Source: Nannochloropsis oceanica
Taxonomy: Eukaryota; Sar; Eustigmatophyceae; Eustigmatales; Monodopsidaceae
NCBI GenBank assembly: GCA_004519485.1
Contig: CP038132.1
Span: 231,001-295,000 of the forward strand
DNA: 64,000 bases
Direction: 5' to 3'
Shown here: in pieces, positions 793 to 6,452 of the stretch
Position numbering within the stretch: position 1 is the first letter of the stretch
How the letters are laid out: the number at the start of each line of letters is the position of its first letter
The notes under the pieces: generated by a model
Databases searched by the model: none
What the model saw: only the letters and a program-made list of their open reading frames with translations
What the model was told of the DNA's origin: nothing
Made by a program: the position numbers and the translations under genes

Positions 793-1243
793 GGGAACTG
801 GCGGGAAGATGATTGTTGCGGTTGGCTGCTTCCTCTTGCTCCTCCGTGCGCTCTCCAACAAGCTTGGAATCGCCGTGCCTGAGTTGGGTGTGCAAGCTTG
901 GAGTGAGTTGTTGCCCGGGAGATGCGGGGTAGAGTCTCAGCACACAAAGAGAGTATCAACGACCAAGAAGACAGCAATTTTCGACTACTGATGACTGGCG
1001 GGCGAACTTGAAGCCCTACCGAGCGGGCCCCAGCCCACCACCAAAAAATGACCACCACATCACGGTCGAGTGACGACAGGTGATACCAAAGCCCACCACT
1101 CGTAGACATTCCATCGGTCATTCCAGTGCGGGTAGGCTCGGAAACCCACAAAAAGTAAGTCTGAAGGATGAAATAGAAAAAAACAACTCAAGCACGACTT
1201 CACTTCACCACATTTATCGCATCTTTTAAGTCTCTATTCAGTG
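793..1243. other. Gene-free stretch upstream of the ZCCHC10-like gene
   Basis: No convincing coding potential. Open frames here lack family resemblance. A polypyrimidine run followed by CAG at about 1170-1195 on the minus strand looks like a splice acceptor for the oxidoreductase gene, but no continuation of that protein can be read after it. Confidence 0.5.
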
Positions 1244-1978
1244 TCACAGAGTGTCCAGGTCCCCTGCCGCCTTAGCCTCGGGCACCCACGAGGCTCCTTT
1301 CACGTAGACCTCCTCAATCTCGCTCCCCACCAAGAAACGAGCCATATCAAAATCGTGGCTGCTCATGTCCAAAAAGATGCCGCCGCTTGTCTTGAGGTAC
1401 TCAGCAGGGGGTGGGGCCTGATCCCGACTTACGATGCGGAAAGTCCGCATTTCGCCAATTGCGCCTTGCGTGATCTGCTTCTTGACATTTTGAAAGTTGA
1501 TGTCGAAGCGACGTTGGAAGCCGAGGATGAGCTTGGTGCCCGCCTTAGCCGCAGCTTGAGTGCAGGCGTCAATAGCAGAGAGATCGTTCGAGATCGGTTT
1601 CTCACAGAAGTCGTGTTTGCCACGCTCGACGGCCGACATGATTTGCTCCACGTGGCAGGGCGTGGGTGAAGCCACCACCACGGCATGCACATCGTCGCGG
1701 TCAAGCAGCTCGAAGTAGTCCTTGTGGTAGGTGGGCATGCCACCCGTTTGTCCTATTAACTTCTTACCCATCTCCTCGAAGGGGTCCGTAATGGCCACAA
1801 GCCGCGCGCCTGGCGTGTGGAAAGCGAGGGTATTGCCGTGTATCTGTCCGATGCGCCCGCAGCCAACGACGCCTACTCCCAACGGTGTTCGGGACATGCG
1901 GAGAAAGAAGCCCCAAGTTAGGACCGGGAAATGGAAGGCGAGACTTAGAAGGACGACGACGGCCTGCTTGAAGGCCAT
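1244..1978 (-). CDS. Gfo/Idh/MocA (inositol 2-dehydrogenase-like) oxidoreductase, C-terminally short
   Basis: The ATG at 1978 gives 244 residues. Residues 1-27 are hydrophobic and signal-like (ending in WGFFLR). A second ATG at 1897 begins directly at the enzyme core, so both secreted/plastid and cytosolic forms are possible. The core has the dinucleotide-binding motif GVVGCGRIG near residue 35, the conserved CEKPI motif of the family (the Lys binds cofactor and substrate), and GFQRRFD followed by HDFDMARFL in the catalytic domain. These match myo-inositol 2-dehydrogenase (IolG)-type enzymes. Family members are about 330 residues, but this frame stops just after GDLDTL, in the middle of the C-terminal beta-sheet domain. 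About 90 residues are missing. I tested an intron with the acceptor near 1170, but the joined frame does not resemble the family. It may be a truncated gene or a pseudogene, or it may have an exon I cannot recognise. Confidence 0.75.
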   Translation of the reverse strand: MAFKQAVVVLLSLAFHFPVLTWGFFLRMSRTPLGVGVVGCGRIGQIHGNTLAFHTPGARLVAITDPFEEMGKKLIGQTGGMPTYHKDYFELLDRDDVHAVVVASPTPCHVEQIMSAVERGKHDFCEKPISNDLSAIDACTQAAAKAGTKLILGFQRRFDINFQNVKKQITQGAIGEMRTFRIVSRDQAPPPAEYLKTSGGIFLDMSSHDFDMARFLVGSEIEEVYVKGASWVPEAKAAGDLDTL

Positions 1979-2012
1979 GCTTCGATTCGAGTGTGACCGA
2001 TGTAATACGGAT

Positions 2013-2179
2013 CATACTGGTGGCACTTGCTGAAGCACGACCCCGGGCAGCTGCAGGAGGAGGAGGAGGAGGGGGAAGGGATAGCAGGATGGATACAGGA
2101 GGGGATCCTGGAAGGGTAGGAGTGGGAGTCGGGGCGGCCGGAGCGGCAACAGGAGGAGGAGGAGAGGGAACGAGGGGAA
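2013..2179. repeat. Direct repeat copy 1 (about 167 bp)
   Basis: Nearly identical to 2763-2932: both begin catactggtggcacttgctg and end gagggaacgagggga. They differ only by a few GGA-type triplet or dinucleotide length changes. The copies flank the first part of the polypurine tract. Confidence 0.9.
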
Positions 2180-2279
2180 TCTCCACTATACTCTCTTTAC
2201 CCGGAGAACAGGCAGCACGAGCACTAGAAACCATTGGTAGAATTCGTGCGGCACTTACTGGAGGAATGGAGAAGGGAAA

Positions 2280-3540
2280 GAGAAAGATAGTGAGGCCGCT
2301 CCGACGAGGGGGAAGAGGGGGAGGAGAAGGAGGAGGAGGGGGAGAAGGAGGGAGAGGGGGAGGAGGGAGAGGGGGAGGAGGAGGAGGAGGAGGAGGGGGA
2401 GGGGGAGGAGGAGGAGGAGGGGGAGGAGGAGGAGGGGGAGAAGGAGGAGGGGGAGGAGGAGGAGGACGAGAAGGAGGGGGAGAAGGAGGAGGGGGAGGAG
2501 GAGGAGGACGAGAAGGAGGAGGCGGTGGAAGACGGGAAGAAGAAGGTAGAGGAGGAGGAGGGGAAGGAGGGAAAGGAGGAGGGGAAGGCAAGAAAGCTGG
2601 GGGTGGGACGGAAGTGGGAGGGAGGGGATATGTGGGAGCCAGTGCAACATCAGCACCAGCACCAACACCGGCAGTGGGAGGAGGGGAAGGAGGAGGGGGA
2701 GGAAGAAGAGGGAAAAGAACCCGGGCTGCGGAAGCAGCAGCAGCCGCCGGGATGCAGCTGACCATACTGGTGGCACTTGCTGAAGCACGACCCCGGGCAG
2801 CTGCAGGAGGAGGAGGAGGAGGAGGGAGGGATAGCAGGATGGATACAGGAGGGGATCCTGGAAGGGTAGGAGTGGGAGGAGTCGGGGCGGCCGGAGCGGC
2901 AACAGGAGGAGGAGGAGAGGGAACGAGGGGAAGGAGGAGGAGGAGGAGGAGGAGGAGGGGGAGGAGGACGAGGGAGGAGGAGGAGGAGGAGGAGGAGGAG
3001 GAGGAGGAGAAGAAGGAGGGGGAGAAGGAGGAGGAGAAGAAGGAGGAGGGGGGGGAGGAGGACGACGAGGAGGAGGAGGACGAGAAGGAGGAGGCGGTGG
3101 AAGACGGGAAGAAGAAGGTGGAGGATGAGGAGGAGAAGAAGAAGAAGAAGAAGAGGAGGACGAGAAGGAGGAGGCGGTGGAAGACGGGAAGAAGAAGGTG
3201 GAGGAGGAGGAGGAGAAGAAGAAGAAGAGGAGAAAGAGGAGGAAGAAGAATGGGGAGGAGGAGGAGGGGGAGGAGGAGGGAGAGGAGGAGGGAGACGAGG
3301 AGGGGGTGGAAGGGGAAGGGGCGGAGGAGGCGGAGGCGGTGGAAGCAGAGGACGGGGGGGGAAGGCGGAGGAGGCGGAGGCGGTGGAAGCAGAGGAGGAG
3401 GAGGGGAAGGTGGAGGAGGCGGAGGAGGCGGAGGCGGAGGAGGCGGAGGAGGAGGGGGCGGAGGCGGTGGAATTAGAGGGGAAGGAGGCGGAGGAGAACG
3501 AGGCGGAGGCGGAGGAGGACGAGGACGAGGCAGAGGAGGA
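2280..3540 (+). repeat. Polypurine (GGA/GAG/GAA) tract of about 1.26 kb
   Basis: The plus strand is almost exclusively A and G. A unit of roughly 45 bp (containing gaggaggcggtggaagacg) recurs at about 2500, 3072 and 3157. Mirror-symmetric polypurine DNA of this length can form triplex (H-DNA) and G-quadruplex structures, which is known for such tracts. All long frames on either strand here are simple-sequence artefacts or the glycine ORF. Confidence 0.9.
2763..2932. repeat. Direct repeat copy 2 (about 170 bp)
   Basis: Second copy of the block at 2013-2179, about 750 bp downstream, in the same orientation and the same reading frame of the glycine-rich ORF. Confidence 0.9.
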
Positions 3541-3723
3541 GGTCATGGGCGGGCCATCCGAGGACTGTATTGGTGTGACACCTGTGAACAGTTCGTGTCC
3601 CGGGACGGCAATGGGGCACGTAACATCCTGCGGGTGTACAGGAGTATGGTCCGTGGAGAAGCTCGTCCCCATGATCTGCGGTTTGGTCAACCACGGCAAG
3701 ATATGCGGACACTCTATGTGTAG
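3541..3723 (+). mobile_element. Fanzor (eukaryotic TnpB homologue) C-terminal remnant: half zinc finger plus RuvC-III
   Basis: The frame reads RGLYWCDTCEQFV, then SRDGNGARNIL, then a basic tail ending in a stop at 3723. A CxxC pair followed by R-D-x-N-G-A-R-N-I is the hallmark end of TnpB and Fanzor nucleases. The CxxC is the second half of the target-strand-loading zinc finger, and the Asp of RDxNGARNI is the third catalytic acidic residue of the RuvC fold. The wording RGL-x-x-C and NGARNI is closer to eukaryotic and viral Fanzors than to bacterial TnpB, which usually has NAARNI. The first CxxC, RuvC-I, RuvC-II and the wedge domain are not seen; the upstream part of the frame is glycine-rich simple sequence. 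It is therefore a fragment of an RNA-guided nuclease gene and not an intact one. Confidence 0.6.
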
Positions 3724-4064
3724 CGTTCCCGCTGACCTCCTCTTTTCTCCTCCTTCCCCTTCTCCTCCTGGCCCTGTGTGGGCCGTCCGGGGACTTTGCC
3801 AGGTCAAAAAACCTATCAAAGTCGCCAGAAAAACTCGGACGAGAAATAAGGGATGACACAAATTTATTGTTGGAAGGCTCCCCCTCGTATGCAAGTCCTC
3901 GAAGACGTCAGGTTGCATGCGATAGTTCTAGAGAGATGTAGGAGCAAGCAATAGAGCAAAAGAACTATTCAGCATTGATAATAATAAATAATAATACATA
4001 ATACATAATACATAATGTTGATATGTACCTCTCCCAAATATGTACACTTGCAAGCTAGCCTTAA
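3724..4064. other. Intergenic, with an AT-rich TAATA/ACATA microsatellite
   Basis: No gene seen. At about 3975-4020 tandem aataataat and cataatacataa units form a short AT-rich microsatellite, probably in the 3' flank of the kinase gene. Confidence 0.6.
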
Positions 4065-6452
4065 CTACACTACATGATCTTTGGCTTCCCCCTCCGTTTC
4101 ACTCTTACCCTGCTCCTCGAGCAATTTCACCAAAAATGCGTGCACCTCCGCCGCCGATGGTCGCTGTCTCGGATCCACATGCCAACACTGTCGGAGTACC
4201 TGTTGAAGCCTGAACGGTATAGAAAGAGACCAGGGATCATTTCCCCCTACGTCACCCTCCCCAAAAGATGGCCGACCCCCCTCCACAATATGCTGGACCA
4301 AATCCTGTGATCGCAAGGAAGTGAAAGGCTCATGGTGGAAAGGCACTTCCATGGTCATCACCTCATGCAAAACCAATCCTAAGGAATATACATCCATCGA
4401 GGGGTGGTACCTGGTCGCTCTCCCCGCCAGTACCTCAGGAGGAGCCCAATTAATGGTACTGGGAAGGACAGGTCCACCGCCCACTGGCACCGCTCCTGCC
4501 CTCCTGCATTCTCCGACATCTCCTAATTTGACGGAGAGTTTGGCAGTCACGAGAAAATTGAGAGATTTAATGTCACCGTGCACCAGTCCATGGGCATGTA
4601 AATGGCAGACACCCGCTGCGCACTCAAGCATAAATTGGAGGCGTAGGACCCGAGGGAGAGCGAGGGGGAGGGGGGGTTCGAGACCATTCGCTTCGTCTGC
4701 GCCGCTTCGTCGTTCACTCATTTTCCCTTCTCCGCGGCTGTTACATCTATTCTCAAGACGCAACCGCTGTGCTGCTTCACTGTCCTCGTCGAAGTCCTCC
4801 TCCTCCTCCTCCTCCTCCTGCTCGTTCTCGTCGTTGTCGTTCCCTTCGCTGTCATTGTCTTCCGCACGCAAGTCTTGCTTCTTGATCCCGCCATCGCATA
4901 GATGTGTGTCCATATCCTTCCCTCCCTCCTCCTCCTTCTCCTTGTCATCAACATTCCCCGCTGCCACCGTCACCACTACCCCCGGCTGCTGCCACACCTT
5001 CTTTTTCGCTCTCTCGTCCTCCCCCTCTTCCTGACCATGCTGCTGCTGCTGCTGCTGCTGCCACCGTCGTTCCCTTTCTTTCCGCACCTGTTCCCTCTTA
5101 AACCTCTTCAAAAAATCGAACATCGATCCATGTTCGCACAACTCCGTGACCAAACAGGCCGCTGGAGGCATGATCGCGACCCCAAGACACTTCAATACAT
5201 TCGGGTGTTGTCTTAGTGAGTACAGCATCCGCGCCTCCTGGAAAAACTCTCGGAGGATGACGGCGTCGAGCTCCATGGCAAAAAGCATTTTGACTGCCAC
5301 TGTCCTAGAATTCCACTCTCCGACATAGACACGACTGTTGCTGCCTGAGCGATATTTAAGATCGGTTCGGAGGAAAATTTGGCCGAAAGGGATAATGGGA
5401 ACCCGCTCCCGAGTCAGTGCTAGCACGGGAGGGGTGGGAGGAGGAGTGGAGGAAGAGGCGCCCTCTGGGGTGGTTTCAAGTTGATACATCAAGCTTGCGA
5501 GCTCGGAGGCAGGAGCTTCTAGAAGGCCGTCCCCCCAGACGTCCAGCAGAGGAGTGTTTAAATTCCCCGCCCATCCATGCGGATCGTGATAGAGGCCTTG
5601 CCACCATTGGGAATCCATGACCAGGGCACGGTAGACGACAAAGGGGTAAATGGCCCAGAGAAGTAATGACCAGGTTGTCCACAGCAGGCAGGGGCCCGGG
5701 AGGAAGCAATGTGCGACGAGGAGGGCTTCCCGAAGGACGAGGGTTGCGAACACGGCGGACATGAGTAGAGCGATGGGCAGAACGGCAGGGCGGCGGGGAA
5801 GGTGTTTCATAGGTGCAAAGGCCAGAAGCATGTAAGCGAGAAGGGGGGGGAATAGGTAAACAAATGCAATGATGTCGCCGACGGTGTTGGTTTCTTCCAC
5901 AGCTCGGAGGAGAGGGACACAGTACCATGCAAGGAAGGAGATGAGGGCCCACATGACGGCGTAGGTGAAACTGTATTGAATCGTCGCGAGGCCCACACCA
6001 TGATGAAGAAGGAAGATGGTAAGTCCTTCGGTGATGAGTCGGGATAAGGCCCAGCAGAGTGCCGCGATGGCGGGGGGGAGTTGCCCGCCGAAGGCTAGGG
6101 AGAGGGCAACGGTTAGAACGTCGACAAAGGCCGTGGCGAAAAAAAGGGAGTAGTAGAAGGGGAAAATGAGGGATGAAGTGGCCGCCGCGGCCTCTGCCGA
6201 GGAGGAAGATAAAACGAAGCTTCTGGAGGCAGAAGAAAAGGATCGAGCGAGGCGTTTGCGGTAGTACATATAGAGGAGCACGATGATCACAGCGCCAGTC
6301 TTGATGCAGGCTTCGACAGTCACGTAGATGCTGCCCGAGATCTGAGAGGGCTGGTTTCCGCACATTGGCGTATATTCGGACGTGTGCAGCAGGGGCGATG
6401 GGGAAGCAGTTGCCTTTGCGGCCCTCGCCACGTCGCGCAAGAACCGGCGCAT
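4065..6452 (-). CDS. Seven-transmembrane receptor-like protein fused to a TKL-type protein kinase
   Basis: The ATG at 6452 gives 795 residues in one exon. The N-terminal half has about seven hydrophobic helices (near residues 45-63, 95-121, 128-149, 162-183, 192-213, 221-249 and 256-276), like a GPCR. A linker leads to a kinase domain from about 350. It has a glycine-poor nucleotide loop (GSNSRVYVG), VAVK with the ATP-binding Lys near 388, HGDIKSLN near 625-632 in place of HRDxKxxN, DVG near 645 in place of DFG, APPEV as the APE motif and DVYSLG. An insert of about 145 residues (451-595) between helices D and E is polyglutamine and highly acidic. The lobe order and APPEV/DVYSLG point to the tyrosine-kinase-like family. 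The catalytic Lys, Asp and Asn are all present, so activity is plausible. GPCR-TKL fusions are known from oomycetes, also stramenopiles. It probably signals from the plasma membrane or an endomembrane; the ligand is unknown. Confidence 0.75.
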   Translation of the reverse strand: MRRFLRDVARAAKATASPSPLLHTSEYTPMCGNQPSQISGSIYVTVEACIKTGAVIIVLLYMYYRKRLARSFSSASRSFVLSSSSAEAAAATSSLIFPFYYSLFFATAFVDVLTVALSLAFGGQLPPAIAALCWALSRLITEGLTIFLLHHGVGLATIQYSFTYAVMWALISFLAWYCVPLLRAVEETNTVGDIIAFVYLFPPLLAYMLLAFAPMKHLPRRPAVLPIALLMSAVFATLVLREALLVAHCFLPGPCLLWTTWSLLLWAIYPFVVYRALVMDSQWWQGLYHDPHGWAGNLNTPLLDVWGDGLLEAPASELASLMYQLETTPEGASSSTPPPTPPVLALTRERVPIIPFGQIFLRTDLKYRSGSNSRVYVGEWNSRTVAVKMLFAMELDAVILREFFQEARMLYSLRQHPNVLKCLGVAIMPPAACLVTELCEHGSMFDFLKRFKREQVRKERERRWQQQQQQQHGQEEGEDERAKKKVWQQPGVVVTVAAGNVDDKEKEEEGGKDMDTHLCDGGIKKQDLRAEDNDSEGNDNDENEQEEEEEEEDFDEDSEAAQRLRLENRCNSRGEGKMSERRSGADEANGLEPPLPLALPRVLRLQFMLECAAGVCHLHAHGLVHGDIKSLNFLVTAKLSVKLGDVGECRRAGAVPVGGGPVLPSTINWAPPEVLAGRATRYHPSMDVYSLGLVLHEVMTMEVPFHHEPFTSLRSQDLVQHIVEGGRPSFGEGDVGGNDPWSLSIPFRLQQVLRQCWHVDPRQRPSAAEVHAFLVKLLEEQGKSETEGEAKDHVV

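Follow-up and report, generated by a model that had tools for sequence, protein, structure and literature searches.

Fanzor1-bearing elements with one-ended insertion have been described in Chlamydomonas and assigned to Helitron2 (Bao and Jurka, 2013; PMC3627910). According to the available text of that study, the elements CRe-1, CRe-2 and CRe-3 carry a Fanzor1 gene, are frequently truncated at the 5' side while the 3' end stays intact, have truncated copies flanked by duplications that vary in length and show extra sequence at some 5' ends. These traits are shared by the family described here, whereas the site of insertion differs: CRe-1, CRe-2 and CRe-3 insert after TTTT and the Nannochloropsis family at pyrimidine-CTA. 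Captured pieces of 0.8-1.2 kb and an insert in the zinc ribbon set the Nannochloropsis family further apart from the elements as portrayed there. Nannochloropsis oceanica itself is listed in the same source with one Fanzor1 family, NOc. The suggestion made in the first-pass annotation, that a Fanzor in this lineage would be a useful host-range point, was thus anticipated in 2013. NOc belongs to the same genus and protein family as the copies studied here and is very likely the same element family.

Two further systems can be compared. For SpuFz1 of Spizellomyces punctatus, the Fanzor to which our modelled homologue P0004 is nearest, ghost loci are reported that consist, as here, of many right-end copies without the gene (Saito, 2023; PMC10432273). 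The Spizellomyces ghosts are described with inverted repeats at both ends, whereas the present family consists of truncated copies with duplications, some of which contain captured DNA. PpFz1 also contains a large extra insertion, the FRI, which in the sections available is given as a folded element, roughly 100 aa long, inside the RuvC domain (PMC11423790); in contrast, the insert found here is of low complexity, Gly-rich and located between the zinc-ribbon halves. The mode of movement of Fanzor elements and the role that Fanzor plays for them are open questions in the field. A right-end-dominated Fanzor1 family with clean duplications, a traceable capture and the target motif in its terminal stem makes models of one-ended insertion and of guide supply in trans testable.

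A chimeric insertion between target site duplications

The DNA analysed, referred to as the window, is a stretch of 64,000 nt of N. oceanica (contig CP038132.1, positions 231,001 to 295,000 of the forward strand). From nucleotide comparisons, window 1242-3964 is shown to be a chimeric, 5'-truncated insertion between 8-bp target duplications. Its parts are as follows:

1234-1241, plus strand: left target site duplication CTATTCAG, identical over its 8 bp to the right flank
1242-1248, no strand assigned: 7-nt filler at the left junction, unlike the donor locus
1249-2012, minus strand: captured 764-bp piece of an oxidoreductase gene (GFO/IDH/MocA), lying antisense to the element, 98% identical to the donor
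2013-2307, plus strand: unique part of the zinc-ribbon insert of Fanzor; longer copies have a homologous insert (right limit approximate, from translation)
2308-3540, plus strand: GGA-rich, Gly-rich tract, read from sequence
3541-3720, plus strand: Fanzor1 C-terminal tail with the second half of the zinc ribbon, RuvC-III and a basic tail, assigned by profile, identity and dN/dS
3574-3585, plus strand: second CxxC of the zinc ribbon (TGT GAC ACC TGT), from sequence and profile match
3604-3606, plus strand: RuvC-III Asp of the RD motif, within TCC CGG GAC; R617 and D618 are invariant in 31 homologues
3721-3723, plus strand: stop codon TAG, read from sequence
3724-3964, plus strand: 3' untranslated region and right end, putatively an omega-RNA scaffold; 122 right-end matches
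3923-3967, plus strand: terminal hairpin, with possible pairing between TAGTTCT at 3923-3929 and AGAACTA at 3961-3967; 30 of 33 copies
3965-3972, plus strand: right target site duplication CTATTCAG, an exact repeat of the left flank

The captured fragment corresponds to C14:145216-145979, where the oxidoreductase gene runs past the breakpoint to its stop, and donor and window diverge at 2012/2013, where the Fanzor insert sequence begins. An oxidoreductase-like ORF on the minus strand (1244-1978), whose Pfam C-terminal domains are cut short, is by this comparison a fragment that was captured and forms part of the insertion, since the donor gene continues beyond the breakpoint and window and donor part at both breakpoints; annotations of this ORF should carry a corresponding warning. 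Because the fragment occupies the 5' side within the target duplications, the missing 5' part of the Fanzor gene was probably never inserted here. A second, putative capture is seen in copy L065, in which the 1,174 bp between duplication and tail match two other loci, C4 (90%) and C10 (97%).

Exact duplications of at least 8 bp (8-15 bp), all beginning with CTA, are present in 11 of 38 copies, compared with 0.46 expected from 1,406 cross-pairs, and the base before the duplicated CTA is C in nine and T in two of them. This set combines 33 of 41 scanned copies, the eight without a recognised end being left out, with five fetched right ends that lack a tail. The other 27 copies show no duplication of this length within an upstream stretch of mostly about 1.5 kb (0.36 kb for five). 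Short matches in L056 and L057 were rejected as duplications, as they lie inside element sequence.

The window also contains, on its minus strand at 52-861, a Ser/Asp-rich frame with a CCHC-like zinc knuckle, recognised by eye.

Longer copies and the glycine-rich insert in the zinc ribbon

The genome (29.26 Mb, 32 contigs) holds longer relatives of the window copy. In L047 on contig C4, which is itself truncated on the 5' side, one frame runs from the RuvC-I motif VAIDPGRVNLV through TTKVHLDCGQRLNPIAR, continues over some 60 residues of Gly-rich sequence and enters a tail of the window type. A genome search with the L047 core gave 33 matches, the best of the other copies having open frames of 707 aa (C27), 887 aa (C9) and 657 aa (C8), with a core-to-tail distance of about 1.1 kb in C27 and C9. 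An intact paralogue elsewhere in the genome had been thought possible, and to the extent that longer paralogues exist this was correct; among the copies read, however, none is uninterrupted from N-terminus to tail, because C27 changes frame between core and tail, C9 is in frame but contains stops and C8 has an assembly gap.

In the longer copies read, the Gly-rich insert sits between the two halves of the zinc ribbon, at the point where the 10 homologues read, full-length or nearly so, have a short loop (e.g. RLNPIASRMAGPPVRAIRGLCWCNTC in P0004). The unique conserved part of the insert is also present in C27, C9, C8, C15, C19 and C11, and a second partial copy of it lies at 2730-2940 of the window, inside the Gly-rich tract. 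Since longer copies carry the insert at the same point, the tract belongs to this Fanzor. A later overwriting of the gene is thereby ruled out, and the proposal that most of the gene had been lost or overwritten by simple sequence gives way to a tract that came with the gene. The tail had further been described as fused in frame to the tract. The frame is indeed open in the window, where 2040-3540 has no stops in the tail frame and seven and six in the other two; this openness is nevertheless poor evidence of fusion, because the purine-rich tracts of the 16 copies aligned from query position 1 contain 13 stops in the tail frame, compared with 17 and 6 in the others.

Purifying selection on core and tail is shown by codon comparisons. 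In 33 of 37 aligned tails (those with more than 90% identity and no gap), silent differences amount to 0.138 and replacement differences to 0.030, giving a dN/dS of 0.20, compared with 1.76 and 2.53 in the other two frames of the same tails; a premature stop is found in 6 of the 37. The core yields a dN/dS of 0.29 over four copies and of 0.33 over six; C11, with 15 inserted or deleted positions, was left out of this comparison, and C19 and C15, with one stop each, were kept. In our reading, the source genes were functional while they bore the insert, and many copies are now dead. The conserved part of the insert behaves differently: its three codon positions differ equally (0.062, 0.062 and 0.063 in 11 partly dependent sequences), which we take to mean that it is without purifying selection and not constrained as protein.

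This last result bears on a different reading, in which the Gly-rich tract lies outside the protein, being either spliced out or gene-killing junk, and the working protein has a short loop as in the homologues. Besides the equal codon positions, it would be consistent with the shift of frame in C27 and the stops in C9, both of which fall within the tract, with a tail frame not depleted of stops, and with an agreement of frame between insert and tail in 11 of 18 cases, several of them not independent, where 6 are expected. Against it stand the constrained cores, which belong to copies already bearing the insert, the single frame of L047 through its insert and the purine tract, which offers no pyrimidine-rich 3' splice site. 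On balance, exclusion of the tract from the protein is the less probable reading, although it keeps appreciable weight, and we retain source genes that functioned with the insert in place. In an RNA-guided nuclease the insert would then be a strange tolerated expansion. Nothing joining Fanzor, zinc finger and glycine-rich was found in the literature searched, whose coverage excludes most subscription papers, and within it the zinc-ribbon insert appears new.

Right ends and the spread of the family

The first-pass annotation had pointed to a conserved right end just downstream of 3723, and one is present at 3724-3964. Its pattern has 122 matches genome-wide at no more than three mismatches, and the reversed pattern has none. 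The 58-aa tail has 110 matches at E <= 10, fragments included, so that the window copy is one member of a repeat family. Loss towards the 5' side is graded: 122 matches to the right end are followed by 110 to the tail, 36 to the insert, 33 to the core and 13 to the N-terminal part, figures that count matches rather than copies and include fragments and some simple-repeat similarity. When 100 of the 122 right ends were compared with 108 of the 110 tail matches, 53 of those listed had a tail match no more than about 700 bp away, and the other 47 had none at that distance. Five of these 47 tail-less right ends were read; two are flanked by exact duplications (15 and 9 bp), a third by a duplication of 14 bp with one mismatch, seen by eye, and the remaining two show none in 450 bp.

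In most copies the right end consists of GTAGGA, a spacer of variable length and AAAAGAA, followed by CTA. The pattern fits 33 of the 41 scanned copies, the others being diverged, cut short or one base off. The spacer differs in length and sequence between otherwise alike copies (window 3943-3957, for example). Of the 33 copies with an end recognised by the pattern, 30 allow all seven pairs of the terminal hairpin, and the last CTA of the hairpin belongs to the target duplication, so that three stem bases equal the target site. Both this CTA-closed terminal stem and the one-ended family with gene capture in the window appear new within the literature searched. The 3' UTR differs by 0.060 between copies, less than the 0.138 at silent sites of the tail, which suggests a function as RNA or as transposon end. 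Its fold in the window has a z of about -2.4, with almost no covariation, and thus gives weak support for structure.

Other arrangements were noted among the copies. Two right ends stand tail to tail about 40 bp apart (C11:850302-850399, L048), and two copies lie head to head at C27:183190-186670 (L044 and L045), the truncated copy lying directly against the N-terminal part of its neighbour's Fanzor gene. The right flanks of L058 and L060 are nearly identical, CTAACTAGC(T/C)TTT, despite different contigs (C2 and C21). A 5' terminus at TCTTTTG mirroring the right end, proposed from these same two copies, was rejected, as homology runs on upstream in other copies; the 5' terminus of the element, and hence a 5' hairpin or ATIR, was not reached in the copies extended upstream.

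As a whole, the locus is probably best explained as a chimeric one-ended Fanzor1 insertion, spread by Helitron-like copying. Copying would start at the fixed right end, with its hairpin and pyrimidine-CTA target motif, proceed 5'-ward over a variable distance, sometimes switch to other genomic DNA and close at a staggered cut. The pattern resembles, by analogy, the one-ended transposition of the Helitron-type Fanzor1 elements of Chlamydomonas. Overabundance of 3' ends, 5' truncation and target duplications of variable length, as described for one-ended Helitron2 insertions, are all found; insertion after TTTT or a T-rich tetranucleotide, as in Helitron2, is not, the 11 duplications beginning with CTA after C or T. 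In N. oceanica CCMP1779, Helitrons are given as the most abundant elements and retrotransposons as few, none of them intact, in the portion available of that genome report (PMC3499364). No transposase was found in the genome. The search with PF14214 (RepHel) yielded no match here and none in any of 14 control genomes, and its silence therefore shows nothing either way. The Y1 transposase of IS200/IS605 (PF01797) has no match in the genome, compared with matches in 6 of the 14 controls.

Another mechanism to be weighed is target-primed reverse transcription, in which an RNA ending in AAAAGAA would be copied at a nick before CTA, with truncation, duplications and template-switch chimeras as its products. 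The classic retroposon pattern likewise combines truncated 5' sides and an intact 3' end with variable duplications and a 3' junction of fixed motif. However, the captured gene fragment lies in the window in antisense orientation, which favours DNA copying, and the 3' junction has no poly-A. The scarcity of retrotransposons and their lack of intact members in the species, as given above, also speak against it, and a six-frame search of the one assembly found no RVT_1 domain over its cut-off, with just two weak matches below it (controls: matches in 3 of 14). Spread through an RNA intermediate is accordingly judged unlikely, and Helitron-like copying of DNA is preferred.

Fanzor1 identity and possible guide RNA supply

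The plus-strand frame read from the sequence at 3541-3720, in which AACATCCTG stands between the RD motif and the stop codon, is identified by profile comparison as the C-terminal end of a Fanzor1. The frame is matched at E 1.3e-18, in a set of 1,560 six-frame segments, by a profile built from 31 homologues outside the window, while reversed segments, with filters off, give 0.57 at best; together with 42 of 54 residues identical (78%, BLASTP) to the full-length homologue P0016, this places the frame far beyond chance. The RuvC-III and zinc-ribbon end of a TnpB/Fanzor nuclease recognised earlier at 3541-3723, and proposed for a profile search, is hence borne out and can be narrowed to Fanzor1. 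That the frame resembles a zinc ribbon by chance, or belongs to an unrelated protein of the zinc-ribbon kind, is a negligible alternative, given this profile match, which rules out a chance ORF, the identity to P0016 and the genome copies that join a catalytic core to the same tail, even though the 61 residues of the tail alone, too short for such searches, stayed below the cut-offs of Pfam (best PF07282 TNB, E 0.057) and of phmmer against the PDB (best TnpB-like protein L79, E 0.28).

With the L047 core, 54 protein homologues were found. Those covering at least 79% of the core are 25-50% identical, and one of them is a Marseillevirus protein; the homologues also include an annotated protein of N. 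oceanica, with 81% identity across 18% of the query. The 31-homologue profile matches the solved structures PpFz1 (E 1e-17), SpuFz1 (2e-16) and GtFz1 (7e-7). As a single sequence, the core gave no result against PDB and Pfam, and a search for relatives among viral contigs returned 91 pattern matches, none of which was confirmed.

The DPG motif, an alternative glutamate and the TDG motif are marks of Fanzor or Fanzor1 in the available text of PMC10711439. The DPG at RuvC-I appears as IDPGR in the longer copies and is invariant in the 31 homologues, the window copy being without that part. The alternative RuvC-II Glu precedes the zinc finger by six residues, the longer copies reading E-HLTTKV-HxxC there and E573 being invariant in the alignment, and the TDG motif of the WED domain is found as STDGVSV, with T379, D380 and G381 invariant. 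Of a C4 zinc finger followed by RD, the longer copies have the second CxxC and the RD, with HxxC in the place of the first pair and the insert between the two halves. In addition, a structure was predicted for the homologue P0004 (46% identical to the core; pLDDT 83.8). The seven best PDB matches of this model are SpuFz, PpFz and GtFz (E 7e-19 to 4e-15), compared with 1.4e-3 for the Fanzor2 9b0l. The predicted fold is thus that of Fanzor1, with P0004 standing as model in place of a protein of this genome.

A second TnpB/Fanzor-like family lies over the PF07282 cut-off (L021-L025, on C1, C8 twice, C4 and C11), and its translated stretches are interrupted by stops.

The copy at 3541-3723 had been claimed to be incomplete, which agrees with the absence of RuvC-I and RuvC-II; lacking these, the window copy cannot make a nuclease or cut. 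By analogy with ghost loci, for which supply of guides in trans is proposed in the available part of PMC10432273, it could at most provide a right-end guide RNA to full-length Fanzors, and other short copies may do the same. If the right end is an omega-RNA, the guide would begin at about 3968. It is conceivable, though quite improbable as a whole, that the 100-odd right ends form a trans guide library, in which the CTA-closed stem would match scaffold to target site and each copy would offer its own flank as a guide to the few full-length Fanzors. One-ended copying would then shuffle gene pieces, and the Gly-rich insert would link the nuclease half to the target-binding half, as a tolerated or a tuning element.

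Beyond the insertion, a protein kinase gene (PK_Tyr_Ser-Thr) with a long N-terminal part occupies 4065-6452 on the minus strand of the window, its end lying about 100 bp from the right end of the element.
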